Shown: piece by piece, positions 2,803 through 62,607 of the stretch | Layout: every line of letters begins with the position of its first letter | Numbering within the stretch: the stretch's first letter is position 1 | Assembly (NCBI GenBank): GCA_964036195.1 | Contig: OZ038454.1 | Span: 25,716,315 to 25,780,314, forward strand | DNA from: Sphaerolaimus hirsutus | Taxonomy: Eukaryota > Nematoda > Chromadorea > Monhysterida > Sphaerolaimidae | Direction of reading: 5' to 3' | DNA length: 64,000 nucleotides | The notes under the pieces: model-generated | What the model was told of the DNA's origin: nothing | The model's database searches: none | What the model saw: only the letters and a program-made list of their open reading frames with translations | Position numbers and translations under genes: made by a program

Positions 2803-5800
2803 CTAAGCGGGGTAACGGGAATTGGGGAGCGTGCAAAACAGCGTTCAGGCGTCTGTAATCAATTACCATCCGCTTCGATCCATCCGGTTTGGATACCACC
2901 AACGTGGGGGCACAATACGGGCTCGTACTGGGTTCCACAATGTCGTGCTCGATGAGGCATCTCAAATGATTTTCTAAGTATTGCTGATCATCCAGACTCA
3001 ACCGGTACATTCTGCATGCAATTGGTTTTTTGTCCACTAATTGCAACCGGTAGTCCACTAATTCGCTGTAGCCGATGTCATACTTATGTCGGGCAAAAGC
3101 TTCTTTGTACTGCAAAATCACCTTTTTCAGTTCCTCTCTGCGTTCGTCCGTCAAAGTTTCTGGCACGGTGAATTCCATCACGTGTCCATCTGGACATGCA
3201 ACTTGCAGTGGGGGTCCTAATTTGTCTTCGGCTACTTTGGGGGGAGGTTCAGTCGCTTGAACCTGTCGACATACATCTCTGTCATAGCACTGCTTCACCC
3301 ATTCAGCGGGGGGGTCTCCGGGTTTCACCTTCAGCACGCAATCCACTGGTTCGACCACCGCAATGCGCTGTCCTACCTGTAGCACTACGGGCTGATTTTG
3401 TACATTTGCACATCTCACCTGAAACACGGGGGCACTGGTTTCATACGCCGCTGAAGCAGCCATAACTCCACAGCGTTCGCCTACCGTATCCAATCCCATG
3501 ACCGTAAATAACTTTTCATCCATGGGGGCAGATAATTTCGCCGTCACTAGCGCTTCATGTCTAGCCAGAATTTCTATTTTTTCATTCACAATAGCGTAAA
3601 TTCTGCGCTGCTGCACTTCCGGGTCTGGGTTATCAAAGGGAATGATCGCATTAGCCGTAGGGATTCGTAATTCCCTTGCAGGTAGGTCTACTACCATGTG
3701 CCGTAAGACATCTGCACCAATTAGAATTTCACCAGCTAATCCGTTCACTGCCTGAAACACAATCCCGAAGGTGTGGTTTCCCATGGTTACCGGTACTTCC
3801 ATTTGTCCCAATACCAAAAGTTTCGAGTCTGCTGCACACCTAAGGGCTCCAATAGGTGAAACTTCGTCATGCTTAGTAGCCTTTTCCTTGTGTCGCATCA
3901 GCACGTCTCTGTTGCATAATGAACGCATGGCGCCTGTGTCCAGTAGACATCTTCGATATTCTCTCCCATCGATGGTTATGGTAATGGATGGGCTGTAATA
4001 CACATGCACGATCTCTTCACGTCGATTGGCTACTTGATGTATGTTATCCCTTTCTTCCGTCGAGAAAGTGATCATGCATACTGATTCTTCTTCCAGATCG
4101 CATTTTCTGTTGATACTGTATTGTATAGCGGGAAAACGACGCGCGCCCGTGAGTGCGGGCATGCCACTTGGCATTCCCACGCACGGGTTAATCACCGTCC
4201 TTACCTTTACCTGTTTGCTAGGGCGGTCCTCAGCCAATTCGACAATGATATTGGACTTTTCTTCTGTCTTTGGTCGCCTTTTGATTTTTTCCTTTGCCCT
4301 GTTCACCAAGGTCACGGCCGTTTCCGGCGCTGCAGCCATGAGCGCGGCTAGTAAATACTGCATGGTGACCAGTGCACATATCAGATAAATCCATACTTGT
4401 AGCCAGGTGCGCCAGGTGTCAAAATCCCACCATCCCAGCGCTAATACCGATTTTGCCAAGGTTCGATGTCTTTGCATGTGTGATTCCACTCTCGGCTCCG
4501 CCCCCTGCGTAATTTGCCGCACGATTGAATATGCATGCCATACGTCATTCAGGGTGGTCGTCGGCAATAATTCTGACAAGTTGTACATGGTCGTGGCGGC
4601 AAAAATCTGATGATGCACATCCTTGACCTTTTCCTGTTGCCATTTCTGTGGGAAACTGTGTGTGTTATACATAGGTAAATGTTCCAGGCCGCCTACTTCC
4701 GGTAGATATTTGTACCACTGTCCATTTAACATTACCACACGATTGTGAGCATTGGTGCATGATCCCGGGATCGCTTGAAAGTGCAAAATGTTTGTCAGCC
4801 TATTCATGTGCAACGTCACATTTTGCCCGTGTACACTAACTTGCACAGGTACTGTTTCATAGCATTCTGGAGACTTTTCCTCTTTCATTATCTCGTACGT
4901 TTTTACCGCAAAACATTTGTGAACTAAAAATCCATCCGGCGCAGGTTTGGCAATTAATTCATTATCATTCATGTACCAGCGGGCTGTCGTAGTGGCGTGT
5001 TCACTCATAGCCAGGCGCACAAATTCTTGGAAATGTTGCACATTCTTGCAGGTGGCTACGGCCTGTGCACGCATGGTTTGTTCTGCTGTTTCGTATACCG
5101 CCTGCATGCTGGCTGCTAATTGGCCTGCGCTCACTATTCCCAGCATGGGTCGACCTTGCGCTCGTTTTTGTCTGACGCTTCGAATCACTGCCTTTTCAAA
5201 TGGGGCCACTACTATATCCTGATCCGATTTCCACAGTTTGATGCCGCATGATTCAACCTCTTCATGTGCTCTGAAAGACAGTGATAGTGTATGATCATCG
5301 GCTAACCAGATATCCTGTCTAATGCGTCCATACATTTCGCGCCATTTTTCATACGGGCATTCCGCCTTCGGGTTCGGTTTCCATGTTAATTGGCTGCCGT
5401 CTTCCAGCGTGCATGCACCCATTTCATAATTGCACTTGCTAACCTCACCCAGCGTGCTTTGCATGGTGTTGGCTCCATATCTCATTCGTACTTCCCCTCG
5501 GAACAGCCCACAGTGTGGCGTCGTTTCACTCACCCATTTGCAGCAGTACAATCCATGTCCTGAGTAACTAACATTGGTGGGGTATTGGGTGTCCCATGCG
5601 TTGTCCAGATCACTCACAGGGGTCATGGGCCCATCGTTGCATTTGTGATATTTAATCATGCCTTCGCACTCGGCGGCGCCCACAGATCGGGGGTTAGAAT
5701 CAAACTTTTCCAGCGTGACGTCGCCCCAGAAGTTCTGATACGTCCTTGCCGTTCTGATAGAGGCCACACACCTGTGCGCTGCCGCACGATATTCTACCAT

Positions 5801-5950
5801 ATTTCGCTTGTATATTGTCAGTGTCAATTTTCGTGGCCGTTCTAATGACGCCGTAGTGTCAACAATAGCCGTGCAATTTGGTAGGGGGGGGTACGTATAT
5901 AAATCGTAGTGATCCGTCAAGTCGCTGCAGAGCAGTGGAAACGGGGGCAT
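2762..5950 (-). CDS. Env-like glycoprotein region, aspartic protease and N-terminal RT in one frame
   Basis: This 1062-residue frame has three parts. Residues 1 to about 515 are a Cys-rich, extracellular-looking region with possible N-glycosylation sites (N25, N126, N377, N457), a furin-type R-Q-K-R at 260-263, and a hydrophobic membrane span at about 516-540 followed by basic residues. The protease follows: LLDTGA at 669-674 and the flap-side ILIGADVLR at 742-750. RT begins near 940 ('VIDYRRLN', 'FPLPRLDE') and runs into the frameshift. The Met at 5,950 is probably not a true start. The 3.3 kb transposon lies just upstream, and across it the Gag frame leads directly into this one. I do not recognise the glycoprotein family; calling it env-like rests on topology, cysteines and the cleavage site. 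Confidence 0.85.
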   Translation of the reverse strand: MPPFPLLCSDLTDHYDLYTYPPLPNCTAIVDTTASLERPRKLTLTIYKRNMVEYRAAAHRCVASIRTARTYQNFWGDVTLEKFDSNPRSVGAAECEGMIKYHKCNDGPMTPVSDLDNAWDTQYPTNVSYSGHGLYCCKWVSETTPHCGLFRGEVRMRYGANTMQSTLGEVSKCNYEMGACTLEDGSQLTWKPNPKAECPYEKWREMYGRIRQDIWLADDHTLSLSFRAHEEVESCGIKLWKSDQDIVVAPFEKAVIRSVRQKRAQGRPMLGIVSAGQLAASMQAVYETAEQTMRAQAVATCKNVQHFQEFVRLAMSEHATTTARWYMNDNELIAKPAPDGFLVHKCFAVKTYEIMKEEKSPECYETVPVQVSVHGQNVTLHMNRLTNILHFQAIPGSCTNAHNRVVMLNGQWYKYLPEVGGLEHLPMYNTHSFPQKWQQEKVKDVHHQIFAATTMYNLSELLPTTTLNDVWHAYSIVRQITQGAEPRVESHMQRHRTLAKSVLALGWWDFDTWRTWLQVWIYLICALVTMQYLLAALMAAAPETAVTLVNRAKEKIKRRPKTEEKSNIIVELAEDRPSKQVKVRTVINPCVGMPSGMPALTGARRFPAIQYSINRKCDLEEESVCMITFSTEERDNIHQVANRREEIVHVYYSPSITITIDGREYRRCLLDTGAMRSLCNRDVLMRHKEKATKHDEVSPIGALRCAADSKLLVLGQMEVPVTMGNHTFGIVFQAVNGLAGEILIGADVLRHMVVDLPARELRIPTANAIIPFDNPDPEVQQRRIYAIVNEKIEILARHEALVTAKLSAPMDEKLFTVMGLDTVGERCGVMAASAAYETSAPVFQVRCANVQNQPVVLQVGQRIAVVEPVDCVLKVKPGDPPAEWVKQCYDRDVCRQVQATEPPPKVAEDKLGPPLQVACPDGHVMEFTVPETLTDERREELKKVILQYKEAFARHKYDIGYSELVDYRLQLVDKKPIACRMYRLSLDDQQYLENHLRCLIEHDIVEPSTSPYCAPTLVVSKPDGSKRMVIDYRRLNAVLHAPQFPLPRLDETVESLCSCKYF
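2764..2768 (-). other. Frameshift in reverse transcriptase at a homopolymer
   Basis: The RT reading frame moves by one base here. The upstream frame ends in a stop immediately after the conserved K-Y-F of RT, and the motif continues in the +1 frame with the catalytic-Asp block. The shift falls at a run of five A on the plus strand (five T on the coding strand). One extra base in this run explains it, either as a mutation or as a homopolymer error in the assembly. A programmed +1 shift in mid-RT is unlikely, since no element family I know places one there. Confidence 0.85.
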
Positions 5951-5960
5951 GGTAATCGCG

Positions 5961-5966
5961 CTCGCG
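5961..5966 (+). repeat. Left target-site duplication CTCGCG of the 3.3 kb TIR element
   Basis: CTCGCG directly abuts the left terminal inverted repeat and is repeated exactly at 9,298-9,303, directly after the right terminal repeat. Confidence 0.85.
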
Positions 5967-5984
5967 CCAGGCTGTCCGGGAGGG

Positions 5985-6295
5985 GCACATACCTATGTGC
6001 CCCTGCATGTGCCCGCTATGTATGTTCCCCATATTTGGGCACATGCACTCGATAAAAAGAATGTATGTGCCCCCCTTGGGGCACATACAACTTTTGAAAA
6101 TGATGCATGTGCCCGCGCTTGGAAACATACACGCATGTATGTTCCCCATGATTTGGGGCACATACATTTCAGAAAAATGTGTATGTGCCCAGCTTTGGAA
6201 ACATACATGCTTTAAAAAAATTGTATGTGCCCGCCTTTGGAAACATACACGGAAAAATAATGATGCATGTTTCCACATTTGGGCACATACATAAA
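5985..6295. repeat. Left subterminal repeat array (TGTATGTGCCC / GGGCACATACA)
   Basis: There are about eight alternating copies of an 11-bp motif and its complement, spaced 15-40 bp. The right end of the element carries the mirror-image array. The regular inverted copies look like protein-binding sites and create spurious reading frames on both strands. Confidence 0.8.
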
Positions 6296-6299
6296 ATAA

Positions 6300-7625
6300 A
6301 TTTATTGTTTGCGGCGTGTAATTTGCACATTTCTAGGTTTTTATTTTTGAATAGGTAGTTATGAATTGATTCCAATAGGTATATTCAAAAAGGATAAAGA
6401 GCATTCAGTCACAGATAGAACAAGATGCACAAAACGAAAATATAGTCTATTATACAATGTGTAATATCCCATTGCAATGAAATCTGCCATTTCATTGGTT
6501 TGGTTTCATCATTATCTCATTAAATGGTTTCATTAAAATTAGTTTTTCGTAGTCGGAGTTCCGACATAATCTGCTATTTAAATCAGTAAAACGATTATTG
6601 ATTGAAAATGAAGCACACGTTTTTGAGCGGCACTATTCATTTATCGAATCCACACTGTGTGCTGCCAGCTCAAAAAGTCTAAACTCAAAAAATCACTGTT
6701 TTGGTTACAGGGTGACCAGGAAATGCATTTTCAAAAAAAGTATTTTCAAAACATGGTTTTCTTGTAGATTTCCCAGGTTTTTTCTTATTTATATGAGAAT
6801 CTGCATTCCAAAAATGGGTGTTTTTCAGAAAATATAATTGAATATAATTTCAAAAATTTTCTGACTAAAAAATAATTAAATCGTTCTGGGAAATTTTAGA
6901 GAAAATACAAATGAGATCATATTTTATTTTCTTCTCATAAAAATACTAAAATAATTCAATCTCTCCAGCAATAAAAAATGCAATTAAAGCCCATGCAAAC
7001 TAATAATAGCATTATTGGACCACCCTGCAATAATGAAGAATATGGCGCCCATGTATCACATGTGTGTTAAATAAATACCTATACACATACCTAGGTATAC
7101 TGATTTCAAAAACGCCTGGACTTAACTCCATTTGTTGCACTACGACTAGGGTTGGGAATTTCAATTCAATGGGGGTTGGGATTCCGATTCTTAAAAATTC
7201 AGTCATAGCTTATTTTTTCACAAATGAACACTCAGATTATCAAATAACATGAAGAGTACATTTCTATTGTCAGATTATGTATATGTATTGGCATTTCAAA
7301 ATGGTAATTTCATGCAAGTGTTTGCATTTTTGGGGTACCGGAAATCTGATTCAGTGTATAGATAATCTGACAACAGTGTGAAATCTTCACGTTGTTCTGG
7401 TCACAATATAATTGGGACCACAGTTTGATTCAGTTTGGGTCGGTTTTGTCTTCCCAACCCTAGCTGTGATATGTACCACATTTTTATCTTGGCTTTACCC
7501 TTCTTATCTAGCCGCTATCCGCGGCGGTGAGCATTTTTTGGTGCATTATTTCTGACCTACTTATCGATTTTGCAGTGGTTTTTCACTTTTGCAGTGGTTT
7601 GACTTTGCAAATTACAGTGATGTCA
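6300..7625. other. AT-rich interior of the TIR transposon, nothing recognised
   Basis: No frame of usable length or recognisable similarity is present. I see only AT-rich sequence with short direct repeats, and no transposase remnant. Confidence 0.6.
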
Positions 7626-7629
7626 AAAG

Positions 7630-7909
7630 TAGTGATGGAAAAAGCGCCAGAACTTTGGCGCCAAGCGCCAAAAGCGCCATGGCGCTTTTTGCTTTGGCGC
7701 TAGCGCCAAGCGCCAGCGCCAGGCATTTTGTTCCTGGCGCCACAGAAAAATAGCGCCAAGCGACAAAAGCGCCATGGCGCTTTTCATGGGTGCGGCGCCA
7801 AGCGCCAATGGCGCCACAGCAAAATAGCGCCAAGCGCCAAAAGCGCCATGGCGCTTTTTGCTTTGGCGCTAGAGCAAGGCGCCAGCGCCATGGCGCTTTT
7901 CCATCACTA
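7630..7909. mobile_element. hAT-like non-autonomous element, GGCGCC family (copy 1)
   Basis: The ends are TAGTGATGGAAAA and its complement TTTTCCATCACTA, flanked by a 7/8-matching 8-bp duplication (GTCAAAAG / GTAAAAAG). The interior is made almost entirely of GGCGCCAAGCGCC and GCGCCATGGCGC words. The 8-bp duplication and TAGTG ends are typical of hAT elements. It has no coding capacity. Confidence 0.85.
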
Positions 7910-7948
7910 GTAAAAAGTGCCGAGCTATTTTGTTTCAATTGTCCATAT

Positions 7949-8052
7949 TGCGCGTGCGCACACTAGTTTACTGCCAGATTTAGGTAAACTCATAATTTGG
8001 CTGATTTATGAGTTTACCAAAATGTGTGCGCGGCTAGTGTGCGCAGCGCCAT
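7949..8052. mobile_element. Palindromic MITE, GTTTACTAGTGTGC family
   Basis: Near-palindromic unit with ends of the form GCGCACACTAGTTTACTG and its complement, and GTAAACTC/GAGTTTAC inner arms. Many related copies occur further on. Confidence 0.6.
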
Positions 8053-8344
8053 TGATTTATCGATGCATTGATCGATATATCTATTTATCCGCAGTGCTCT
8101 CACTTTTTATGGTGGGGCAACATGCGATTTGGGGCGATTTGGTGGCAATTATGTAATTAATTGCCAGCCGCAAACTGCCGGCGCAAGAATCAATTGAATC
8201 AATCAATTGACGATTATGGGGGGGGGGTGGTAATAATCCTATAATCGTGTACACGTACCACTTGTAATGGCACGTGAATTGCAGACAGCTCTGAAACTGC
8301 TTTGAACTGCCTACATCTAGTTACTACATAATTTATTCTTCTGG

Positions 8345-8630
8345 TGCCAACCAAAACCCTGTAAACTGATGTCAAATTGATCGTTTCTTTTCACTTACAA
8401 CTCTACTGGACATATCACATGTAATTGTCTTTCAATTGCACACAAACGACATTTTTAGCCACAAAAACTGAAGTCGTTTGTGTGCAATTGCAAGACAATT
8501 ACATGTGATATGTCCAGTAGAGTTGTAAGTGAAAAAAACACACGATAAATTTGACATCTTTCAGGGCATTTTACATGACTTTTGACACTTTGCATGGCAT
8601 TGGTTTTTCACAGGGCGTCTGAAAGTGATC
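8345..8630. mobile_element. Diverged CCWGG-family (introner-like) copy with internal hairpin
   Basis: The left end reads CTGG then TGCCAACC and CCCTGTAAA; the right end has TTTTTCACAGGGCGTC. A hairpin with arms of roughly 65 bases at about 8,392-8,532 fills the middle. The target duplication is not clear, so assignment rests on the left end and the internal words. Confidence 0.5.
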
Positions 8631-8639
8631 TCAAGATTT

Positions 8640-9000
8640 CACGTTTCTAACTTCCAGAAACCATAAAAAGTAACTGTGAACATGGTGGGAAAACATGGTT
8701 TGAAACCTTGACTTGAGTTTTATGTTCATTTGACCTTCATTCGAGGGCTCCTCAGCAAGCTTTGGATAGGGATTGTGAACCAGTTAACATTTGCGGTGCT
8801 TGTGAATTAGCATGTATATGGCCATTTAGTTATATATACAAAGATATAATGACTGATTTTAAGTACCACAAAATGAAGCCACCTGGAATGTAAAAACATG
8901 CTGCTCCGCCTCCTTACTTATTTGTGAGTGTCTATCTAAGAAGTAAAATGCACGCAGCTGGTATTCCATCTTGTTATTTGACTTAAAAATTATTGTTTTT
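8640..9000. other. No recognisable feature
   Basis: AT-rich interior of the TIR transposon with no frame, RNA gene or repeat I can name. Confidence 0.5.
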
Positions 9001-9009
9001 AAATGTGTA

Positions 9010-9290
9010 AATATGTGCCCGCGTTGGGGACCATACAATCATCTCGGAATTTTGTATGTGCCCGGTATGGGGAACATACAGACGTCTAAAAAATTGTATG
9101 TGCCCGCATTCGGGAAACATACACGCGCATGTGCACATGCATGTGCCCAGCTGCGGGAACATACATACATGTATGTGCCCGATGGTTTGGGCACATACAA
9201 ACTGTAAAGAAAATGTATGTTTCCAAGTTTGGGCACATGCAAATTTGTATGTGCCCAGTGTACCTCAGTTTGTATGTGCCCCTCCCGGAC
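9010..9290. repeat. Right subterminal repeat array of the TIR transposon
   Basis: Mirror image of the array at 5,985-6,295, with about eight copies of TGTATGTGCCC or its complement. The Gag frame runs about 85 codons into this array before its stop, so the last residues of that frame are transposon-derived. Confidence 0.8.
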
Positions 9291-12200
9291 AGCCTGGCTC
9301 GCGCCCGGTAATAAAGCCAATCCCATTATAATTAACCCAATTGCCAACACAAAAAACAGCGACTGTGCGACCTGGGGCATGTAGGGGGGTTCTGAGTACG
9401 CGCGCGGCGCGGGGCGCACCCCTTCCTCAGTAGACAGAAAGCCCATATACCTGTCTATCTGGTTGCTGGAGCCAGTACGCGGCGGCAGAGCGGCCGGCGT
9501 GGCGTACAAAAACGGGTCCAGACTGATGTTCATGAGCACGTCCAAGGGCACCTCAGTCAGCGTGTCCGAGTGGTCGTCTGCGGGACAATTAGGCCACAAC
9601 GTACAGTCCGTTTCCTTCAAATCATGCATTCCGATCCTGCGCAAAAAGGCCAGCCAGGTAGTTCGAAACAGGTAACCTTTTTCAGTTCGCATGTATGCCC
9701 ACGGTTTGATCCAGAATTCCCGCTCCTGCGCGAGCACATGCATTCCAGTAGTGCGCTGCTGCTCTTCGGGTGACTCTGGAACCAGTTCGTCAGGTTCCTC
9801 ATCCTCTAATTCCAAGCCTTGCATCACAGGGATTAATTTATTAACGGGACGTATCATCATGCAGCGATCATCTTCGCGCACATGCATGGTCATTCTGGTC
9901 GTACTGGACACTCGCGTGGGGTTCAGCGACTCTACGTGGGGGTTACTTACCTGTACCGGTTGCATGTTATATTGTTGCATGCGCCCATCCGGTCCCATAG
10001 CCATCCAGTTAGCTGGCGGCGTTTGATAAGCCATCATTTGCGGTTGCATGTTCATATCGCCAGCCCTCTGTACCGTCTGCGCTGGTTGTACAGGCATCGG
10101 CTGCGCTGGTTGCCACTGCGGATATGCGTATTGCATGGGCACCATACCTGGCTGCATCGCTTGGGCTTGATTATTTCCCTGATAGCCACCACGTTGTCCT
10201 CCGCCGCGCCCACGTCCATTTCCTCTGGATGCTCCGCCGCCGCGGCTCCTTTTGAAATACTGTTCCCTTTGTTCTGGGGTTAGTTTGGGGCACTCATATC
10301 TGATGTGCTCTTCAGAGCCACATTCCCAACATCCTTTGTCAAATTTTCGTGGGGGCAATTTAGGGGGGTCCCTGTTCAATCCCAAAAGTTTACCTTCCAA
10401 CGCGCCCAGTTGCGCTAATTTCTTCGCTATCTCTTGGTGCACAGAGTCAAATTTGGCAACACTCTCAGTCATTTTCTGTTCCATTGTCTCTAACGTCTTG
10501 TCGGCCTGGGACGGCAGTCCAGCCATGGCGGGCATGTTTAGCGCCATCAACCTGTCCATTACCTTGTCTGTAGCGCTGGCAACCACATCCTGTTTGGATT
10601 TTTCTCCCTTATTCTGGCTCTGTTCTGCTTCCAGAAAGCTCTCTTGTGCGCGTGCGTTGTCAACCATCTCTTTCCAAGTGATAGACGCTGTGACAGGTAC
10701 ATTGCGCCGAATTTCATTTCTCAGTCCTCCATGAAATTTTATCATGCATGTGTCACCTCGTTTTTCATGACCCATGCCTGGGTAGGCGCGTTTTATCAAT
10801 TTTTCCAAACGTACCGCCCATTCCAGTACCGACTCATCTGCGCCCTGTCGCGTCTCAAAAATCTCTCTCTGTGCATGATGTTTGTCATTTGGGTTTTCAT
10901 AGAACTTCTCCAGTGCCTGCATCATGTCCTTGTAATTCAGGTCACGCAATTCCCTGTATCGAGTGTTGAAAATGGCTCTGGCACTGCCTTTCAAAAACAA
11001 TTTTACCAGCGGCTTCCGCTCCTGTAATTTTATGCGCAGCGCATCACATACCGTATCCCAGCTCCTTCTCCAGTCCCTGAAACCCTCATTTGGTTTGCCG
11101 CGAAAATATCCACATTGTTGTGCTAGGGCTGTAATGACCGCCGCATTGCTTTGTTCTAATTGCCAATTTTGTCCCGGGTCCGTGGGCCGCGCCACTTCAG
11201 ATGTAGCTGACGAGCTCCTGGAGGATGCTGGCGAACGGGATCGAGCGCGCCGCTGCGTAACAGTTCTCACTTGGTTCGTTCCAGCTGCCGACGGGGGCGC
11301 CGCTGGTGCCGTTGATGACTGTAAGGGCGCTGCTTGACCATTGGTCAGCACTATCGGCTGCTGGCCACTGGCCGGTGAATTTCCTCCCAGCGTCGCATTC
11401 TGATTTTGTAAGGCTTGATTATGCTGCTGGTACGCAGTCGTCAGGTCAACTATATCGTCGCCATGTACGCTGTGGTGCGCTTCGAATTCCTGCAAAAAAT
11501 GTTCCACCCTAGGTACCTCGGCGACTGGGTCACTTCCCCATAAATTCATAGCAATTTTAATTAGTGTCACCATACGCAAGTCCCCTGGTTCACCATTCTG
11601 TGAGAATGCGCCAACTGGTCTCGCCTGACTCATCATGTTTGCCCATTTCTTTGCGGCTTCACATGCCTTTTTGGGTGTCCATTGTGCACAGGATGGCGTT
11701 GTTTGCACCGGGTCCAGGTCCATTATGGTAGCTTGGTAAATTAAATTCGCATTAGTGACCTTTGCGTATCTGTCTTCCAGCGCCGGAGCCGCCGTCTGGT
11801 TCGCGCCATTGTTTGTCATTCTGCTTGCGGGGCTGCTAATGATTATCACGGGGGGATTACTTGAAATTTCAGTCTTAATTAACTGGCGTCTAGCCTTTGC
11901 AGTTGCGCTCTGCGATCTCGACTGGTCGCTCGATAAGTTCCGACTGCTGTTGCCTGACACGTCTCTCGGCGTCGAAGTGCTCTTCGGTGGGCTTAACTGC
12001 AGCGCCGGGGAAGTGTCTCCACTCTGCGTCGCTGTCTCCAACAGTTCCGCTACGGTATTTTCAATCACAGGAAATTGATCTGCAGTAGCTCCAAGCTCGG
12101 CTGCAATCACAGGGTAATCACGTTGAATCGACGGCTGCCCTAGAGGCTCGCTGTCACCAACGTATCCGTCTGAACCGACTTCAGAACCCGATCGCACTCC

Positions 12201-12695
12201 AGGCGATATGGATGAGCTGCCCGCGCTCCAACCCAGTGTCCTCCGAAGCTTAGACCACTTACCTGTCTTTCCTGCTTCCTTTCCTGCAGCTTGTCTGCTT
12301 GTCCCAGGCGCTTCTTCAGCTTCTGCGCTGGACGTTAGCTGCCGCGCCGCTGCCGGTACAGCTGGCGTCTTCCACTGACTGAAACTGTCTGGTGCAGGCC
12401 CTGCACCTTCAACCGTTGATAACCTGATTACCGGGGTGTCCTCAGCTGTCTGTCCAGACCAGCGTTGACTTTCACTCTCCTCTAGCGCTTCCGGCGCTTC
12501 TGTTTCAGGGTTAACCGAATCGTTCGACTCACTGTCTCCTGCTTGACTCTCAGCTGCAGCAAGTTGTGCGTCCACTTCTTGCCCAGCCTTCTGTTGTCGC
12601 GCGCGCCTTCGTGCTTGTTTTTGCTTCTCCAACGCAGCGTGCCAAACTTGTTCTATGGTGTCCCCTTGTAAGCTTGCTGGCCCCCTCGATCTCAA
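9039..12695 (-). CDS. gag: Gag polyprotein (last ~85 codons are from the inserted transposon)
   Basis: The frame is 1218 residues long. Residues 1-290 are a Ser/Glu/Ala-rich low-complexity region. A capsid-like region spans about 510-690, with the retrotransposon-gag signature around 'LKGSARAIF' and 'ESVLEWAVRLEKLIKRAY'. A CCHC zinc knuckle (C-x2-C-x4-H-x4-C) lies at about 785-800, followed by an Arg/Gly-rich stretch and a Gln/Met/Pro-rich linker. A hydrophobic helix at about 1108-1128 would act as signal-anchor for the glycoprotein encoded next. Real Gag sequence ends at the transposon border (9,297). The first in-frame ATG is at residue 293 (11,819); the frame is open upstream to the primer-binding site without any ATG. 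Confidence 0.9.
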   Translation of the reverse strand: MRSRGPASLQGDTIEQVWHAALEKQKQARRRARQQKAGQEVDAQLAAAESQAGDSESNDSVNPETEAPEALEESESQRWSGQTAEDTPVIRLSTVEGAGPAPDSFSQWKTPAVPAAARQLTSSAEAEEAPGTSRQAAGKEAGKTGKWSKLRRTLGWSAGSSSISPGVRSGSEVGSDGYVGDSEPLGQPSIQRDYPVIAAELGATADQFPVIENTVAELLETATQSGDTSPALQLSPPKSTSTPRDVSGNSSRNLSSDQSRSQSATAKARRQLIKTEISSNPPVIIISSPASRMTNNGANQTAAPALEDRYAKVTNANLIYQATIMDLDPVQTTPSCAQWTPKKACEAAKKWANMMSQARPVGAFSQNGEPGDLRMVTLIKIAMNLWGSDPVAEVPRVEHFLQEFEAHHSVHGDDIVDLTTAYQQHNQALQNQNATLGGNSPASGQQPIVLTNGQAAPLQSSTAPAAPPSAAGTNQVRTVTQRRARSRSPASSRSSSATSEVARPTDPGQNWQLEQSNAAVITALAQQCGYFRGKPNEGFRDWRRSWDTVCDALRIKLQERKPLVKLFLKGSARAIFNTRYRELRDLNYKDMMQALEKFYENPNDKHHAQREIFETRQGADESVLEWAVRLEKLIKRAYPGMGHEKRGDTCMIKFHGGLRNEIRRNVPVTASITWKEMVDNARAQESFLEAEQSQNKGEKSKQDVVASATDKVMDRLMALNMPAMAGLPSQADKTLETMEQKMTESVAKFDSVHQEIAKKLAQLGALEGKLLGLNRDPPKLPPRKFDKGCWECGSEEHIRYECPKLTPEQREQYFKRSRGGGASRGNGRGRGGGQRGGYQGNNQAQAMQPGMVPMQYAYPQWQPAQPMPVQPAQTVQRAGDMNMQPQMMAYQTPPANWMAMGPDGRMQQYNMQPVQVSNPHVESLNPTRVSSTTRMTMHVREDDRCMMIRPVNKLIPVMQGLELEDEEPDELVPESPEEQQRTTGMHVLAQEREFWIKPWAYMRTEKGYLFRTTWLAFLRRIGMHDLKETDCTLWPNCPADDHSDTLTEVPLDVLMNISLDPFLYATPAALPPRTGSSNQIDRYMGFLSTEEGVRPAPRAYSEPPYMPQVAQSLFFVLAIGLIIMGLALLPGASQAVREGHIQTEVHWAHTNLHVPKLGNIHFLYSLYVPKPSGTYMYVCSRSWAHACAHARVCFPNAGTYNFLDVCMFPIPGTYKIPR
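9298..9303 (+). repeat. Right target-site duplication CTCGCG
   Basis: Exact copy of 5,961-5,966, directly after the right terminal inverted repeat. Confidence 0.85.
10283..10332 (-). other. CCHC zinc knuckle of Gag
   Basis: The encoded residues C-W-E-C, then H and C, have the exact C-x2-C-x4-H-x4-C spacing of a retroelement nucleocapsid knuckle. A Gly/Arg-rich RNA-binding tail follows. Confidence 0.95.
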
Positions 12696-12785
12696 TTCCC
12701 TTTGGGGTGACTCGTTATCCGTGAAGCCGTTTTTTGTAGAGGCGTTGATCAGGCGCCCCAGACAGAAAACTTTTATGGCTTGCTT

Positions 12786-12809
12786 AGGAAACCACTCGCT
12801 ACGCTACCA
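12786..12809 (-). promoter_or_regulatory. Primer-binding site resembling initiator-Met tRNA 3' end
   Basis: On the coding strand the site begins TGGTAGCGTAGCGAGTGG. The complement of the animal tRNA-iMet 3' end is TGGTAGCAGAGCAAGG, so the match is good but diverged. Ty3 and several insect elements prime from tRNA-iMet. It starts about 2 bases after a terminal CTGACA that would be the LTR 3' end. Confidence 0.65.
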
Positions 12810-16104: not shown

Positions 16105-16449
16105 TGAAGACAGCTGGAAGTCAGCTGGGAGGCTTTATCCGCTAGCGCAACCCAGTTCAAAGTTAATCCACTAGCGTCACCTGCCTTACGCGCTGGCACT
16201 CGTTTTCGTTTTGCATGTATGGTCGTGCTCACGCTAGTTGACAACGACGCCAAATGTCAACTGGTTCCAGTCCCAATTGAAAGTTCGCTGACCAGCCGAC
16301 GAACGACGTTCACACGCAAAAGTGTTTAATCATGTCGCAAATGAAGCTGTAGTGGTGAAAACGGTGATTGCCACATGTGCGACTACAATAATGCGTGGTG
16401 TAACTCGTCAGCAAGCTTTCAATCGGAATCGGAACCAATCGACATCTGG

Positions 16450-16670
16450 TGCCAATCCCAAGCCCTGTAAAGTGTAAAGTAAAGTGTCAAATGTAAAGTC
16501 AAATGCAAAGTAAAGTGTCAATCAAAACAAAAAAGAAAAGATTTTATTACTGAACTTTGCATGACAATTGACAGTTTACTTGACACTTTACTTTACATTT
16601 GACATTTGACTTGACACTTTACTTTACAGTTGACACTTTACTTTACACTTTACAGGGCTTGGGACTGCCC
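16450..16670. mobile_element. CCWGG-family (introner-like) element, tandem copy 1
   Basis: The left end is CTGG then TGCCAATCCCAAGCCCTGTA; the right end is TTTACAGGGCTTGGGACTGCCC then CCTGG. The interior is a palindrome-like run of TGTAAAGTGTCAAATG words. Its right CCTGG (16,671-16,675) is directly followed by the left end of a second copy. Confidence 0.75.
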
Positions 16671-17113
16671 CCTGGTGGCAATCCTAAGCCCTGTAAAGTG
16701 TAAAGTAAAGTGTCAAATATAAAGTCAAATGCCAAGTAAACTGTCAAGTGTAAAGTCAAATGCAAAGTAAAGTGTCAAATGCAAAGTAAAGTGTCAAATG
16801 TAAAGTCAAATGCAAAGTAAAGTGTCAAATGTAAAGTCAAATGCAAAGTAAAGTGTCAAATGTAAAGTAAAGTGTCAATTGTGTATCCAAATCGAATTTT
16901 TTGGTATCCAAATCTTTTGTTTTTGTATCCAAATCTTACTTTTTGACATGAAGTTTGGATACAAAAACAAAAAATTTGGATACCAAAAATAAGATTCACA
17001 ATTGACACTTTACTTTACATTTGACAGTTTACTTTACATTTGACACTTTACTTTACATTTGACACTTTACTTTACGTTTGACACTTTACTTTACACTTTA
17101 CATGGCTTGGGAC

Positions 17114-24754: not shown

Positions 24755-24853
24755 CCGTATTTACTCGGAATACCCCCTCGAAATACCCCCCTCGTTTACC
24801 CCCTCCCACTCAGAAAAAATACCCCCCCGCGGGGGTAATTCGAGGAAATACGG
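24755..24853. mobile_element. Minimal 99-bp TA-MITE
   Basis: Ends CCGTATTTACTCGGAATA and TTCGAGGAAATACGG are flanked by TA. It ends 38 bp before a wake exon, so it overlaps the acceptor region of that intron. Confidence 0.8.
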
Positions 24854-24891
24854 TAAATATCACATTCAATTACCCCCGAACCCCATTCCAG

Positions 24892-25097
24892 GCGGTCGCA
24901 GTCGAACGCCTCCCACCATTCCACATTCAACTCGCTGTGCACCGAGGACAGTTTCATCGACGAGGACACCTTCCTGGACGGGTACAATGACGCCGAGTGC
25001 GGCGCGCCGGACACGGACAGCCCCATGGTGTCGGCCACGGCGATCTTGGCGCACAGGGCCAACATGGTCGGCAGGAAGAGACGCGCTTTTAAGACCG
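24892..25097 (+). CDS. wake: wake exon (acidic/Ser-rich N-terminal region)
   Basis: Acceptor CATTCCAG|G and donor ACCG|GTTTGT. It encodes 'RRSQSNASHHSTFNSL', an acidic patch 'EDSFIDEDTFLDGYNDAE', and a basic end 'MVGRKRRAFKT'. It starts in phase 2 and ends in phase 1, matching the exons on both sides. Its short neighbours are TA-MITEs on both flanks, 38 and 11 bp away. Confidence 0.88.
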
Positions 25098-25108
25098 GTT
25101 TGTGGTTA

Positions 25109-25523
25109 CCGTATTACCTCGAAATACCCCCAGGGGGTTTATTATTTCGCCAGCAAAATTTGAGGGGGGATAATTCGAGGGGGGGGGGGTTATTCGAGGG
25201 GGGGGTCTATTATTTCGCCAGAAATTTTCGGAAATTCCCCATACGCAGACGTAGAAAAATCGAACAATCACATAGATTTATATGTGTTTATAGGCATATA
25301 TTACTGTATATACACAAAAACCCTTCCCTAACGTCACTTAATCACCAGTTTTAACGTGTGTTCTGCATAGTACAGATCACAATCTGCGGTATTTGTCATG
25401 TACGTTCTAGTTACACTCAATTTTAGGGGGGGGGTTATTATTTCCTCAGCCGAAATTTAGGGGGGGGGTATTTCGAGGGGGGGTTAATTCGAGGGGGGGG
25501 GGGGATAATTCGAGGTAATACGG
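25109..25523. mobile_element. TA-MITE, CCGTATTACCTCG subtype
   Basis: Inverted ends CCGTATTACCTCGAAATACC and GAGGTAATACGG between TA dinucleotides, with G-run interior. It starts only 11 bases after the exon donor. Confidence 0.85.
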
Positions 25524-29625: not shown

Positions 29626-29825
29626 TGCACTTCGCCGAGCTATCCAAGCCGTACTCCGTCCTGCACGAGTCGACCGAGACGCCGAGCGGCGGCGACGCGA
29701 CGCAAGCGACCCCTAGCGGCGGTTGCGCGCCGGCTCCGCCCACCCGGTGCACCCCGTCGGTGGCGGTGACCGTGTGCGACGAGCGCGGCGAGCCGACGAT
29801 CGTGCCGGCCGCCGACGGCGACCCG
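29626..29825 (+). CDS. wake: wake exon (N-terminal region)
   Basis: Acceptor AACTCGCAG|TG and donor GACCCG|GTGCCA. It encodes 'HFAELSKPYSVLHEST' followed by a Thr/Pro/Gly-rich segment ending 'AADGDP'. The entry phase matches the exon at 24,892 and the exit is phase 0. The donor GT is made of the last base of a CCCGG motif plus the first base of a CCWGG-family element that fills the next intron. Confidence 0.85.
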
Positions 29826-29826
29826 G

Positions 29827-31046
29827 TGCCAATCCCAGACCCTGTAAAAGACCCTGTAAACTGTCTAGTGATGGAAAAGCGCAAGAAAAAATGGCGCCGG
29901 GCGCCAAGGGCGCCATGGCGCCATTCGGAAAGTGGGCGCCAAGCGCCAAGGGCGCCACAGAAAAAGGGCGCCAAGGGCGCCATGGCGCCATTCAGAAAGT
30001 GGGCGCCAGGCGTCAGGGGCGCCACGGAAAGAGGGCGCCAAGCGCCAAGGGCGCCATGGCGCCATTTGGAAAATAGGGCGCCAGGCGCCAAGGGCGCCAG
30101 GATAAAAAAGTGCCTACAACACCATGCGTGTGCTAAAAATGTTTCTACAGCACCATTGTACGCACATTCACTTCTTAATTCGCGTTCCCCAGGATGTAAT
30201 GAACAAAAACAAGGCTAGCAACCAAAAATTTTTGAATAAAATCCACATGACGAATTCAAACGCAATGGAAATTGTCATTTGACAACAATCCATTCATTAC
30301 AAATAGACCTTTCCAAATAATGTTTCCTAATTGCAACGATTTAAATCCGTTTATTTATGATTTTGCAAGTTATACGGTCCATCATTCTTGTCTTCTGATC
30401 CGTCAGACAGATCTGATGAACCGCTGGACGAAAGATTTCCACCCACTCACACCACTCCGTCCATTTTTCTGGCGAATTTAGATCATCCACGGATGCGTTT
30501 TTCATATTTTTTTTCGTTTACACAGCACTCACCGTGAAACCCTGCTGGCGCCTTTTTGGCGCCCTTCTAAAGCAGGGCGCCAGGCGCCAAGGGCGCCACG
30601 GAAAAAGGGCGCCAAGCGCCAAGGGCGCCATGGCGCCTTTCAGAATGTGGGCGCCAGGCGCCAAGGGCGCCACAGAAAAAGGGCGCCAAGCGCCAATGGC
30701 GCCATGGCGCGGCGCCCTTTGGCGCCCTCAAATGGCGCCAGCGCCATGGCGCCATTCCATCACTAAAAGTGTCAAAGACCCTGTAACATGTCATGTGTCA
30801 TGTAAAAGACTGTGTAAAGTGTCATGTGTATCCAAATCTTTAGTTTAACATATCCAAATCGTATGTTTTTTGTATCCAAATCTTATGTCAAATAGTAAGA
30901 TTTGGATGCAAAAACATAAAATTTGGATATGATGAAATAAGATTTGGATACACATGACACTTTACAGGTTATTTTACATGATATAGATGACACTTTACAT
31001 GTCATTTGACGCTTTACAGGGTCTTTTACAGGGTCTGGGAGTGCCC
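29827..31046. mobile_element. CCWGG-family element forming a wake intron, with hAT insertion
   Basis: The left end TGCCAATCCCAGACCCTGTA and the right end TTTACAGGGTCTGGGAGTGCC... lie between CCCGG (29,822-29,826) and CCTGG (31,047-31,051). Both flanks are directly exonic. A GGCGCC-family hAT-like element (29,866-30,765) sits in its left arm; without it the element is about 310 bp. The element is the intron: the donor is at its left edge and the usable acceptor GGGAG| (31,041) lies inside its right end. Confidence 0.8.
29866..30765. mobile_element. hAT-like element, GGCGCC family (long form, copy 1)
   Basis: Ends TAGTGATGGAAAAGCGC and CATTCCATCACTA with a 7/8 duplication (AAACTGTC / AAAGTGTC). 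The GGCGCC-rich arms flank a unique AT-rich middle that is shared with the copy at 40,176. No transposase. Confidence 0.88.
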
Positions 31047-31178
31047 CCTGGACTACGAGCTGAACAACGCGGACAAGCTGTCGGTGGGCATGGCGGCGGC
31101 GCACAAGCGCCTGTTTAAGTCGAACGTCACCGACGCGGGCATGCTCAAGATCAAGTACGACCTGTGCTCGGGAGGAAG
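31042..31178 (+). CDS. wake: wake exon (start inside CCWGG-family element end)
   Basis: It encodes 'LDYELNNADKLSVGMAAAHK', 'RLFKSNVTDAGMLKIKYDL' and 'CSGG', with donor GGAAG|GTGCGT and exit phase 2. With the AG acceptor at 31,041 the exon begins with three extra codons (C-P-L) taken from the element end and target copy. If the TG of CCCCCTG served as acceptor it would start at 31,051. Both keep phase 0. Confidence 0.82.
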
Positions 31179-36740: not shown

Positions 36741-36754
36741 CCGAAATAATCTGG

Positions 36755-36943
36755 TGCCAGTTCCGCAAAATGAGAAGTGAGAAGTGAAATGGCAAAGGCG
36801 AAGAAAAAACGCAAAAGCGAAGTGAAATGGCAAGTGAATTGGCAAGTGAAATGGCAAAAGCGAAGAGTAATTATGTTTTATTTTTATTTTTTTACTTCGC
36901 TTTTGCCGTTTCACTTCTCACTTCTCATTTTGCGGAACTGGCC
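36755..36943. mobile_element. CCWGG-family element, TTCCGCAAAATGAGAAGTG subtype
   Basis: The ends TGCCAGTTCCGCAAAATGAG and CATTTTGCGGAACTGGCC mirror each other almost exactly; the interior is GAAGTGAAATGGCAA words. The left neighbour is CTGG and the right is CCAGA. Confidence 0.7.
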
Positions 36944-37387
36944 CCAGAGTTGTAGTTCCTGAAGTTCGCAATTCATCTATTCACAATTTTCGTCATGGAA
37001 ATTTGCGTGGGTACTATTTTCAGCCGTTCCGCTGTCCATTTATGAACGTAACCTAAAGTGACATCAGTGGGATATGACGTAGGGAGACATTTTGTCATAT
37101 TTACAAATGTCTGTCTCTCTTCATTTCATCTCAGTTCATTGTATAACAAAATGTGGTGTAACTCCACCAGCGGGCTGCGGTTTTCTGAATGAAACACTTC
37201 ATAATGACGTCATAATTGATAAAACAAAAGTTGTTCCAAAAAAAATTTAAAAAACGTTTCATGATAGAACATGTTGTTTGTCTTTTTCAATATTCATCTT
37301 TTTGTGTGAATTTTTTGAGTGAATGTGGGTTTACGCCACAGTTGTTAGAATGTATGTACATTTACTCAAAAAATACGTGTACGCGAG

Positions 37388-43523: not shown

Positions 43524-43675
43524 GTGAGTGGGGGGGGGGGGTACCCAAAACCCCGAAAGTGGGGTAGTAAGTGTTGCGAATGGATGTGTTTTTTATGTGT
43601 TTCCTCGAATTACCAACTCCTTGAATTGATCTCCTCCCCCCCCCCCCCGTCGAAATACCTCAAGGTCAGACCTGG

Positions 43676-43884
43676 TGCCAGTTCCGCAAAATGAGAAGTG
43701 AAATAGCAGAGGCCAAGTAAAAGCGCAAAGGCGAAGTGAAATGGCAAGTGAATTGGCAAGTGAAATGGCGAAAGCGACGAGAAATTACTTTTTTTATATT
43801 TTTTTTATTTCGCTTTTGCAAATTCACTTGCCGTTTCACTTCGCCTTTGCGTTTCACTTCACTTCTCATTTTGCGGAACTGGCC
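43676..43884. mobile_element. CCWGG-family element, TTCCGCAAAATGAGAAGTG subtype (copy 2)
   Basis: CCTGG then TGCCAGTTCCGCAAAATGAG at left; TTGCGGAACTGGCC then CCTGC at right. The interior is GAAGTGAAATGGCAAGTG words. Confidence 0.75.
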
Positions 43885-43989
43885 CCTGCGGAAATGATAA
43901 CCCACCCACCCCCTTGTGATGCACCCAGGTCAGACCTGTGGTACCCCCTGGCAATACGCCTACCCGAATTTCGTGCGAAGAGTATATAA

Positions 43990-47068: not shown

Positions 47069-47179
47069 CCGTATTTCCTCGAAATACCCCCGGAGGTTAT
47101 TTTTTCAGAGTGAGATTTTCAGGGGTGTTAAACGGGGTGAGGCTATTTCGAGGGGGGTATTTCGAGCCGGTAAATATGG
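47069..47179. mobile_element. Short TA-MITE in intron
   Basis: CCGTATTTCCTCGAAATACC to GGTAAATATGG between TA dinucleotides. It makes up nearly half of the 249-nt intron. Confidence 0.75.
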
Positions 47180-50341: not shown

Positions 50342-50491
50342 GTGTGCACATGGAGTTTACTTTATAGTAGACAACCCTAGGCCCTGAAAAGTGTCAATTC
50401 GAGTGTCAAATGTCATGACAAATGTCAATCAACATTTGACATTTGACCTGACTTTACACTTTGCAGAGGTCAGGACTGGCGGGTCTCCAGG

Positions 50492-50957
50492 TGCCAGTTC
50501 CGCAAGTGGAAAAGTTAAGAGTTAAAAGTTAAGGGTTGAGTAAAATGACAGATGGCAAGTTAAGAGTAAAGTTAAATGATGAGTTAAGAGACAAGAGTAA
50601 AGTTAAATGACAAATGATTAGTTAAGAGATAAGAGTAAAGTTAAGAGTTAAGCAAGTGTATCCAAATCTTATTTTTTCGTATCCAGATCTTATGTCTTTG
50701 TATCCAAATTTTATGAGAGAACATAAGATTTGGATACAAAAACATAAGATCTGGAAAATAAGATTTGGCTACACTTGCTTGACTCTTAACTTTACTTTTA
50801 TCTCTTAACTAATCATTTGTCATTTAACTTTACTCTTAAATTTACTCTTGTCTCTTTACTCATCATTTATCATTTAACTTTACTCTTAACTTGCCATTTG
50901 TCATTTTACTCAACTCTTAACTTATCACTCTTAACTTTTCCACTTGCGGAACTGGCC
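50492..50957. mobile_element. CCWGG-family element with CCAGG duplication inside a wake intron
   Basis: CCAGG (50,487-50,491) then TGCCAGTTCCGCAAGTGG; right end CCACTTGCGGAACTGGCC then CCAGG (50,958-50,962). The interior is GTTAAGAGTAAAGTTAAATG words with a central AAATCTTATG palindrome. By itself it could be spliced out as CCAG|GTGCC...CCCCAG|G. Confidence 0.85.
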
Positions 50958-51419
50958 CCAGGGCGGGTAGGGGGAGGCGCGGAAATCCAAGGTCGAACCC
51001 CCAGAAAGATGTTGCTGGGGTAATTTTAAGTGGGAAAAAAATAACTATACGGTGATGGAAATTTTTTGCCCTGTTCATTTCAGCGCTTTGCAAGTGTATA
51101 CAGAGTTGTGGAAGGAGTGTATTTACTAGAAACTATTGTCAATACCCACTTTGAGCACACACACAGTAGTTGATATCGCAAATTCGTGTCAACTGAATGT
51201 CAATGGAATAACGCAAAAATTCTTTAAAGAACCACACTTATAAAAGAAAGCAAAAATAGCGTAATACAAAATTAATTAGGTAAAAATACGCTCTATCACA
51301 TAGGAAAGTTGAAGTCACACAATTAACCAAATTTAGTTGAACTAAGTTGCGTTGTAGTTGAACTAAGCTGAAATTTCTACGTCAACTAGTGTGCAAACTC
51401 ATTCTCCCCCCCCCCCCAG

Positions 51420-56952: not shown

Positions 56953-57159
56953 GGCCTATCCATCCGGTGGACCCAGTTAGACAAGTTCCTGCGGCGGCAC
57001 AAGACCAAATCGCTGGGCGACCAGTCGAACGCGTACGACCTGCTCACGTCCAGCCTGATCGACATGCTCAACTTCTACGAGTCGAGCTACGTGCCGCTCG
57101 ACCGCGGCCTGTACCTGTGCTACATGAAGCTGCACGCGTCGCTGACCGACATCAGCCTG
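56953..57159 (+). CDS. wake: wake exon: conserved helical region
   Basis: Acceptor ACACGCAG|G. It encodes 'GLSIRWTQLDKFLRRHKTKS', 'AYDLLTSSLIDMLNFYESSY' and 'RGLYLCYMKLHASLTDISL'. The donor AGCCTG|GTGCCA lies exactly at the edge of a CCWGG-family element. Leaves in phase 0. Confidence 0.93.
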
Positions 57160-57160
57160 G

Positions 57161-57647
57161 TGCCAGTCTCGGGGCCTGTAAAATGTCCTGGAAAATGTCA
57201 TGTGTCATGTAAAGTGTCTAAAGTCATGGAAAATGCCCTGCGAAATGGCGGATCCGTGCCGGCACACATCTAAACCCATTACACATCTAGACAGAGTCTG
57301 CGGATAAACAGCGATTATCTAAATACATGTTGGATCGATGAACGTCAATCATTCAATAAAACATTGCTCATTATTCAGCGGTGCTGGCAGCGTGCATTGT
57401 TTCCATCATAAGCGGGTCCAAATTTGGATGCATGATAGTAATATTAGAGGACACGCCCGCTAGAATCAGATGAGTGACGTGTTTAGATGTGTAATGGGTT
57501 TAGATGTGCAATGGGTTTAGATGTGTACTAAACCTCAGTCCAAAATGGCATCTCGGTTGCCATTTCGCAGGGCATTTTACATGACTTTTGACACTTTACA
57601 TGACACATAACATTTTACAGGGCAATTTACAGGGTTCGGGACTGCCC
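57161..57647. mobile_element. CCWGG-family element forming a wake intron (CCTGG duplication)
   Basis: CCTGG (57,156-57,160) then TGCCAGTCTCGGGGCCTGTA; right end TTTACAGGGTTCGGGACTGCCC then CCTGG (57,648-57,652). Exon sequence abuts both sides. The interior has TGTAAAATG words plus a repeated TTTAGATGTGTAATGGG unit around 57,480-57,530. Confidence 0.88.
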
Positions 57648-57651
57648 CCTG

Positions 57652-60665: not shown

Positions 60666-60936
60666 ATGGATCAGCAGCGTGGCCAGTCTGGCGCGCGACA
60701 AGTCCATCGAGGCGGGCGCGTGCGCGCTCGCCCTGGCCGACCTCTTCCAGTACACGCCCGCCGCCCTGCCCGCCGGGTCGGGCATCGTGCCCGACACGGA
60801 CAGACCGTCGGGCAAGCGGAACTTGGCGCCCACGCGCAGCCTGGTGCCCGACAGACCGGACTTGGTCGATGGCGCCGCGCCTGCGCCCGTTGCCGTGATC
60901 GACGCAAATCCACCCGCCGCTCCCGTCAGAGACAGG
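60666..60936 (+). CDS. wake: wake exon: end of conserved domain and Pro-rich tail
   Basis: Acceptor TTGCGCAG|A, donor GACAGG|GTGCGT. It encodes 'WISSVASLARDKSIEAGACA', then a Pro/Asp-rich stretch ending 'PAAPVRDR'. Enters phase 2, leaves phase 0. Confidence 0.9.
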
Positions 60937-60984: not shown

Positions 60985-61110
60985 ATTTATTGGGCCAGTT
61001 ACACATTCTATAAAATGACATGTAAAATGAGCCCAGTCAATTATTATTTTACATGGTCTTTGACACTTTGCATGACATTTCACATTTTACAGGGCATTTT
61101 ACATGCCCAC
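60985..61110. mobile_element. Diverged CCWGG-family element in a short intron
   Basis: GGGCCAGTTACACATTCTAT at left and TTTTACAGGGCATTTTACAT at right, with TGTAAAATGA words. It makes up much of the 202-nt intron. Ends too diverged for certainty. Confidence 0.4.
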
Positions 61111-61981: not shown

Positions 61982-62272
61982 CCGCCGTTCGCACCAGTAC
62001 GCCAACGTGGCGTCGACCAGCGACGAGCCGTGCGCGTGCAGTTCGCTAGCCGACACTACAACCGACCCGCCCACATCGGACTCGCCAACGCACTCGCTGC
62101 AGCGCTACGACAGCTTCCTGCACGCGCCGCGGCACCACCGACGGTTCGCGTCGCCGGCGGCGGGTACCCGACGGGCGCCCGTGCCGCCGCCGCGGCTCTC
62201 CTGCGCCGAGTCGACCGACTCTGACCGGGTCGACGTCGAGTCATCCTCTGCTGAGTCGAGTAGTTTGGCCAG
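61982..62272 (+). CDS. wake: wake exon: Ser/Thr/Pro-rich tail region
   Basis: Acceptor TTCCATAG|C, donor GGCCAG|GTGCCA. It encodes 'RRSHQYANVASTSDEPCACS', 'HSLQRYDSFLHAPRHHRRFA' and 'SCAESTDSDRVDVESSSAES'. Enters phase 2, leaves phase 2. Its last CCAG plus the next G is the CCAGG target of the introner that forms the following intron. Confidence 0.9.
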
Positions 62273-62463
62273 GTGCCAGTTCCGGACACTGTAAAGCGGC
62301 ATGTAAAATGTCAAATGTCACGCAAAGTGTCAAAAGTCATGGAAAATGCCCTGCAAAATGGCAACCGAGTTGCCATTTTGCAGGGCATTTGACATGACTT
62401 TTGACACTTTGCGTGACATTTTACATTTTACAGGGCATTTTACAGGGTCCGGGACTGCCCCAG
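62273..62463 (+). other. Intron made entirely of a transposable element (introner)
   Basis: This 191-nt intron is the CCWGG-family element 62,274-62,459 plus parts of its duplicated CCAGG. The donor CCAG|GTGCC uses the last G of the left copy and the first T of the element. The acceptor CCCCAG|G is the right copy. Removal restores the uninterrupted exon with one CCAGG. Confidence 0.9.
62274..62459. mobile_element. CCWGG-family element forming an exact intron (CCAGG duplication)
   Basis: The left end TGCCAGTTCCGGACACTGTA mirrors the right end TACAGGGTCCGGGACTGCC. Flanks are CCAGG (62,269-62,273 and 62,460-62,464). The interior is a near-perfect palindrome of TGTAAAATGTCAAATGTCAC words around GGCAACCGAGTTGCC. 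Confidence 0.9.
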
Positions 62464-62607
62464 GCCGCGCGGCAGCACGTCGAATGTGGGCGCCGGCCGC
62501 GCTCGTCTGTTGTCGTCGGCGCCGCCGCCGCCCAACTCGACCGTGTCGGATTCGGAGGCGTCCAAGTTGGCCGCGGGCAGCTCGGCGCCGGCGAACTTCA
62601 ACCGCAG
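62464..62607 (+). CDS. wake: wake exon: Ser/Ala/Pro-rich tail region
   Basis: Starts exactly at the introner border. It encodes 'PRGSTSNVGAGRARLLSSAP' and 'NSTVSDSEASKLAAGSSAPA', with donor CCGCAG|GTGGGT. Enters and leaves in phase 2. Confidence 0.9.

Follow-up and report, generated by a model that had tools for sequence, protein, structure and literature searches.

The window analyzed here is a stretch of 64,000 nucleotides (C6:25716315-25780314) from a genome of 348 Mb in 762 contigs, all of which was searched. Recognised exons of a wake/ANKFN1 gene lie on the + strand from about 24.9 kb to beyond the window end, and one of them is split by a palindrome of 188 bp (62273-62460), the arms of which (62277-62365 and 62369-62457) are 90% complementary over 89 nt and separated by a 3-nt spacer. 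This bears out the sequence-only reading, which had placed a palindromic element in a wake exon with CCAGG on both sides. Taking out the proposed intron, 62273-62463, leaves a single CCAGG and the uninterrupted frame GCC AG|G CCG CGC, as had also been claimed, and the borders are canonical GT-AG, with an AG acceptor in the register that preserves the product. The features of the window are as follows:

16449-16671, + strand: related copy of the element, CTG on both sides
29826-31050, + strand: probable third wake element-intron, exon assignment uncertain; CCG on the left (29823-29825), CTG on the right (31048-31050)
36754-36944, + strand: copy of a sister subfamily (GTGCCAGTTCCGC ends), CTG on the left and CAG on the right
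43675-43885, + strand: sister subfamily copy, CTG on both sides
50491-50958, + strand: sister subfamily copy, CAG on both sides
57160-57651, + strand: second wake element-intron, CTG on both sides (57157-57159 and 57649-57651), predicted GT-TG
61046-61103, + strand: decayed piece of the 3' arm (90% over 58 nt) in the short wake intron between the exons at 60936 and 61139
61983-62272, + strand: wake/ANKFN1 coding exon 5' of the element, open frame, start approximate
62270-62272, + strand: left CAG target copy, end of the upstream exon
62273-62463, + strand: proposed GT...AG intron, made of the palindromic element (62273-62460) and the right target copy
62461-62463, + strand: right CAG target copy, source of the AG acceptor
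62464-62607, + strand: wake/ANKFN1 coding exon 3' of the element, open frame, ending at AG|GTGGGT

A provisional wake protein was assembled from 19 joined exons, and residues 230-960 were scored in a protein search. Four matches were obtained, namely ANKFN1-type proteins from a nematode (the best match), a rodent and a fish, plus a weak fish fragment; the unjoined wake reading frames (n = 8) gave no Pfam match at 0.01. The host had been taken for an insect, a view contradicted by this best match and by the presence of a nematode cuticle collagen N-terminal domain and a nematode Srx receptor domain, from which the host is probably a nematode. Wake introns of the ordinary type have GT-AG borders by eye wherever these were read. 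The copy at 62273 sits in a poorly conserved part of wake and presents a second in-frame GT-AG option, which would add 12 codons. At the second element-intron (57160-57651), the flanks of the junction align without gaps to the nematode, rodent and fish ANKFN1-type proteins. Just beyond the window end, at the equivalent of about 64261-64454, a further copy with CTG on both sides (L040) splits a conserved wake exon as FCL^VAVVGARERRLRDDF, in agreement by eye with the nematode protein, and its predicted borders are again GT-TG; neither of these two CTG sister copies has an AG at the required acceptor. The element at 29826-31050 encloses other repeats, and the piece at 61046-61103 is possibly the remnant of an older introner.

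Other repeats occur in the window. On the - strand, 43-12803 contains long frames that resemble by eye a retrotransposon polyprotein, with stretches similar to reverse transcriptase and integrase. A second repeat family of CGAAATACCCCC-type sequence, found at 24780-25120, at 47070-47160 and in other intron stretches, sometimes starts no more than about 100 nt from a wake donor and could be another intron-associated element. GGTGCC-rich repeats are present between 51680 and 54560 in at least two wake introns (51782, 51840, 52875, 53751, 53810 and 54423).

Relatives of the 62273 element were found elsewhere in the window, as the sequence-only reading had stated, and also genome-wide, where the exact 14-mer CAGGTGCCAGTCCC (after CAG) occurs 1,706 times and exact CTGGTGCCAGTCCC (after CTG) 1,494 times, the corresponding reversed-pattern controls giving 3 and 0. 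The share of CAG among these exact starts is 53%, a significant excess (p = 2e-4), and the near-even split is what insertion into CWG without regard to orientation would be expected to give. A first genome pass yielded 2,109 element candidates, 40 of which were scored, and the ends were inspected at 39 places comprising 40 copies, with wake itself counted as one place with two copies. One end, here called 5', reads GTG in 40/40 copies and is preceded by CAG or CTG in 39 (by AAG in L044); the opposite end is ...CCC or CCCC in most copies, and in most the same triplet comes next. The left triplet is followed by G in 40/40, whereas other letters may follow the right one, for example in L017, L019, L025, L026, L031, L039 and L045. 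Because the base on the right varies but the one on the left is invariably G, only CWG is duplicated, and the G is part of the element. The element therefore brings its own donor, GT being its two initial bases, and all that the target copy contributes is the acceptor. Two details of the original proposal have to be revised in this light: the target duplication is not the source of both splice sites, and the flanks of the 40 copies define the target as the 3-bp CWG instead of CCWGG, the C before the left triplet being absent in L015, L016, L030, L031, L032, L037 and L039. The family thus bears the hallmarks of a transposon, inverted repeats and target duplication, and it is found, as introners are, at many separate genomic places with several coding exons among them. 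About eleven similar CAG/CTG copies at C9:24.96-25.76 Mb, C15:19473011, C16:15068230 and C591 resemble a single insertion that was multiplied when its host segment was duplicated.

The consensus of 39 copies, some of which are duplicates of one insertion, is 189 nt long (pairwise identity 85-100%, mean 94% to the consensus). Its arms agree at 87 of their first 90 positions, the breaks being position 2 (T vs G), position 4 (C vs G) and a mixed position 12. The 5' end is GTGC against GGGG at the 3' end, and the break at position 2 is the one that makes the donor; the 5' GT was forced by the choice of copies, and the informative part is that the opposite end is not GT, with the exception of L038, where both ends carry GT. 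In the divergence comparison, the mirror column for position 2 is likewise largely forced, in this case by the search pattern. By reading, the two ends of the copy at 50491-50958 have the same outer 19 nt apart from position 2 (T vs G). In L047, a pairing of 564 bp, with an end of the GT type on either side, was detected as well. The simplest reading of these ends is that one end of the element mutated from an ancestral GGG to GTG, which would have generated the donor and determined the strand on which the element can be spliced.

The NuwaI group of the PHIS superfamily is described as producing 5'-CWG-3' duplications, with ends usually beginning with GGG, in animal hosts (PMC4482050). CWG duplications were found at the inspected copies and at the genome-wide end pairs, and by sequence the CWG target and the GGG-type end would fit NuwaI (PIF/Harbinger-related) transposons, as would the animal host. 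Nonetheless, NuwaI elements are presented in that source as transposons and not as introns, one end of the element described here is GTG, and nematodes do not figure in the host list given there (PMC4482050). The genome contains at least 163 matches to DDE_Tnp_4, a domain of PIF/Harbinger-type transposases; among the matches listed, most share about four TGA stops within the matched span, which could be an intron of the transposase gene or a common defect.

Several of the interrupted exons belong to recognizable genes. When joined exons were compared with solved structures, the alignment was gap-free across the junction in 6 of 7 cases (Kir2.2, TARBP1, BCKDHA, cyclin Y, CNOT9 with E 1e-39, and Na/K-ATPase), and the remaining one, L032, had no PDB match; the name Talin for L032, a guess from the letters without homology support, was dropped. 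A Pfam domain above the cut-off spans the junction in 8 of 29 sense joins (RhoGAP, Ank_2, Col_cuticle_N, SpoU, Srx, Rcd1, Sugar_tr and Calpain_III) and in 0 of 11 antisense joins, no such spanning match being obtained for the other 21 sense joins. Below the cut-off, Ion_trans was detected in L042 and 7tm_1 in L084, and in L031 a ligand-binding domain starts at the junction. Calling the coding strand by codon usage was right for 34 of 41 segments when each exon was left out in turn; as it scored badly in the AT-rich L031 exon, which holds a real domain, we relied on homology. Among the 17 homology-supported copies (14 firm and 3 weaker), the GT end is on the 5' side of the gene in every case (17:0, p = 1.5e-5), as splicing requires, in a sample that was not blind, since the antisense joins tested were fewer and the sense ones had been picked partly by codon score. 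The frame, the homology at many sites, the target duplication and the orientation give good support to the earlier claim that the wake intron is a transposon-derived introner, its splicing being predicted from them.

The CTG copies pose a particular problem. Ten of the homology-supported copies, nine of them firm and one weak, are flanked by CTG left and right, namely those in Kir, TARBP1, BCKDHA, CNOT9, a sugar transporter, Srx, calpain, wake (two copies) and, weakly, a 7tm receptor. At the eight loci tested, and by reading at wake 57160, no product-preserving register offers an AG acceptor, and the sole such register with a GT donor is GT-TG. On these sequences, either TG acceptors are in use or several conserved genes are damaged; as the CTG copies occur in conserved genes, TG is probably used there. 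Two further copies, L014 and L107, have CTG on the left and right triplets that would give GT-CG if these copies are exonic.

The left and right triplets also appear to keep a record of change. Copies whose ends matched exactly at a spacing of 153-180 nt, from coding and non-coding places pooled, were distributed as CAG/CAG (177), CTG/CTG (108), CTG/CAG (52) and CAG/CTG (29); copies without a located right end were left out of every end-pair count. The CTG/CAG copies include those in conserved exons of cyclin Y and Na/K-ATPase. Changes that create AG exceed the reverse ones (i) in the raw counts (52 vs 29, p = 0.014), (ii) after duplicates were collapsed by eye from sequence prefixes (about 46 vs about 16, p = 2e-4), and (iii) as conditional rates (52/160 vs 29/206, Fisher p = 4e-5). 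These genome-wide gapped counts supersede an anchored local count of 66 copies, which had given CTG/CTG 27, CTG/CAG 8, CAG/CAG 13 and CAG/CTG 1, the other 17 falling into classes of 1 to 4, several of which are one-base length changes. Neutral correction of W:W mismatches in the hairpin, and not selection for AG acceptors, might also produce left/right mismatches, and would explain why these are common in both directions (52 T/A and 29 A/T), above the prediction from a divergence of about 6%. However, a neutral model predicts equal numbers, against the asymmetry observed in all three comparisons, and we regard this explanation as rather doubtful, even though neutral correction may act as well.

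Splicing of the CTG copies could instead use canonical GT-AG sites, either internal to the element or close by, with residues gained or lost and without any TG acceptor. Internal CCT|GTAAAA and TTTTACAG|GG sites are indeed present, and in-frame, stop-free GT-AG alternatives exist within 30 nt at 7 of the 8 CTG/CTG loci tested, as well as at wake 57160 (13 found) and at 62273. The calpain copy (L115) is not decisive, as its alternative adds just 3 foreign codons, but the cost is higher elsewhere: at least 17 foreign codons in Srx (L090) and at least 14 in TARBP1 (L045), a loss of 7 codons in Kir (L029), 5 in CNOT9 (L110) and 6 in the sugar transporter (L114), and both 8 codons lost and 6 foreign ones in the 7tm copy. 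Moreover, the codons that would vanish from Kir and CNOT9 align to known proteins, and BCKDHA (L093) has no in-frame, stop-free GT-AG alternative within 30 nt of the element. Following the register and 30-nt alternative searches, internal canonical sites were rejected as a general explanation, and we consider this possibility very unlikely. Even less credit can be given to the CTG insertions being recent, unspliced and gene- or allele-breaking: CTG/CTG pairs with exact ends are fewer than CAG/CAG pairs (108 vs 177, p = 5e-5), as such damage might lead one to expect, but many unrelated conserved genes have intact frames on either side of the insertion and the CTG/CTG copies are not young, their median divergence from the consensus being 8.8% (n = 16) vs 5.8% (n = 18) for CAG/CAG, in samples that were chosen differently. 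Finally, precise elimination of the elements from the DNA of body cells, and not from RNA, is scarcely credible, since exact excision between short direct repeats would fit it too but the one-orientation bias in genes (17:0) and the excess of AG-creating changes are expected of splicing and not of elimination.

Altogether, the wake intron is very likely an introner whose source was a NuwaI-like (PIF/Harbinger-related) miniature transposon of the non-autonomous kind, in a genome that is nematode-like. In the mechanism that we propose, a transposase would insert the element at a CAG in the wake exon, with duplication of these 3 bp; the 5' end of the element, GT where the ancestral end was probably GG, would serve as donor and the right-hand CAG as acceptor, and the spliceosome would remove the element together with one target copy, leaving the coding sequence unchanged. 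As CWG reads CAG or CTG depending on the orientation, nearly half of the copies are found at CTG, with TG as the only acceptor offered, and T-to-A changes creating AG would probably be favoured afterwards. A broader proposal, to which we would give an even chance, is that hundreds or more of these transposon-made GT-TG introns are spliced as ordinary constitutive introns, the long hairpin drawing the borders together so that TG suffices; that TG later becomes AG by a single T-to-A change, so that the birth of introns and their later improvement can be read from the sequence; and that the intron-maker arose when one arm of a NuwaI-type palindrome acquired one or two changes (GGG to GTG).

Introners, including those with target-derived splice sites, are already established: they are described as intron-generating, non-autonomous transposons that carry inverted repeats and are flanked by target duplications, with splice sites coming from the element, the target or both and with GC and GA donors as rare cases (Gozashti et al. 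2022, PMC9860276). The family reported here shares with them the inverted repeats, the target duplication and the creation of introns. However, the main text of that work refers to two animal groups only, with copepods named and nematodes unmentioned, and we found no mention there of GT-TG introns, a predicted feature of the Sphaerolaimus family. In the protist Amoebophrya, introners also have hairpin-forming inverted repeats and direct repeats at their borders, many of which are non-canonical (PMC7789003). As described there, the direct repeats are of 3-5 nt, the borders are varied and there is no family-specific inverted repeat, whereas the nematode element is one family with one target and a fixed GT donor. 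Many non-canonical introns have been described in tunicates and in the copepod Eurytemora affinis (PMC5714493), where introns with GA or GG donors resemble ours in their recent gain, the AG at the exon end and the non-canonical borders. In the copepod, however, it is the donor that is non-canonical, while the nematode element has a GT donor, neither GA nor GG, and a non-canonical acceptor. A reversed insertion would give GG-AG; for L032, the only such candidate looked at, homology gave no support. That TG can end an intron is documented by the TG 3' splice sites of human U2-type introns, reported as alternative sites in 36 human genes (PMC2374985), in contrast to the nematode TG, predicted to lie in the sole GT-containing register of many new introns. 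In the open-licence literature we found no CWG/NuwaI-like introner, no nematode host and no widespread GT-TG introns. A later survey of introners and horizontal transfer reportedly exists outside these papers, so that any priority for introners in nematodes is provisional.

If this interpretation is true, nematode-like animals would join the few animal hosts of introners, and very little would separate an ordinary miniature transposon from an intron-maker. The genome would also offer a natural experiment, in which the same element is found at CAG and at CTG and differs mainly in one acceptor base, so that one could measure, within a single genome, what a TG acceptor costs and how it is repaired. 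In such genomes, gene models that demand GT-AG borders would break many genes.
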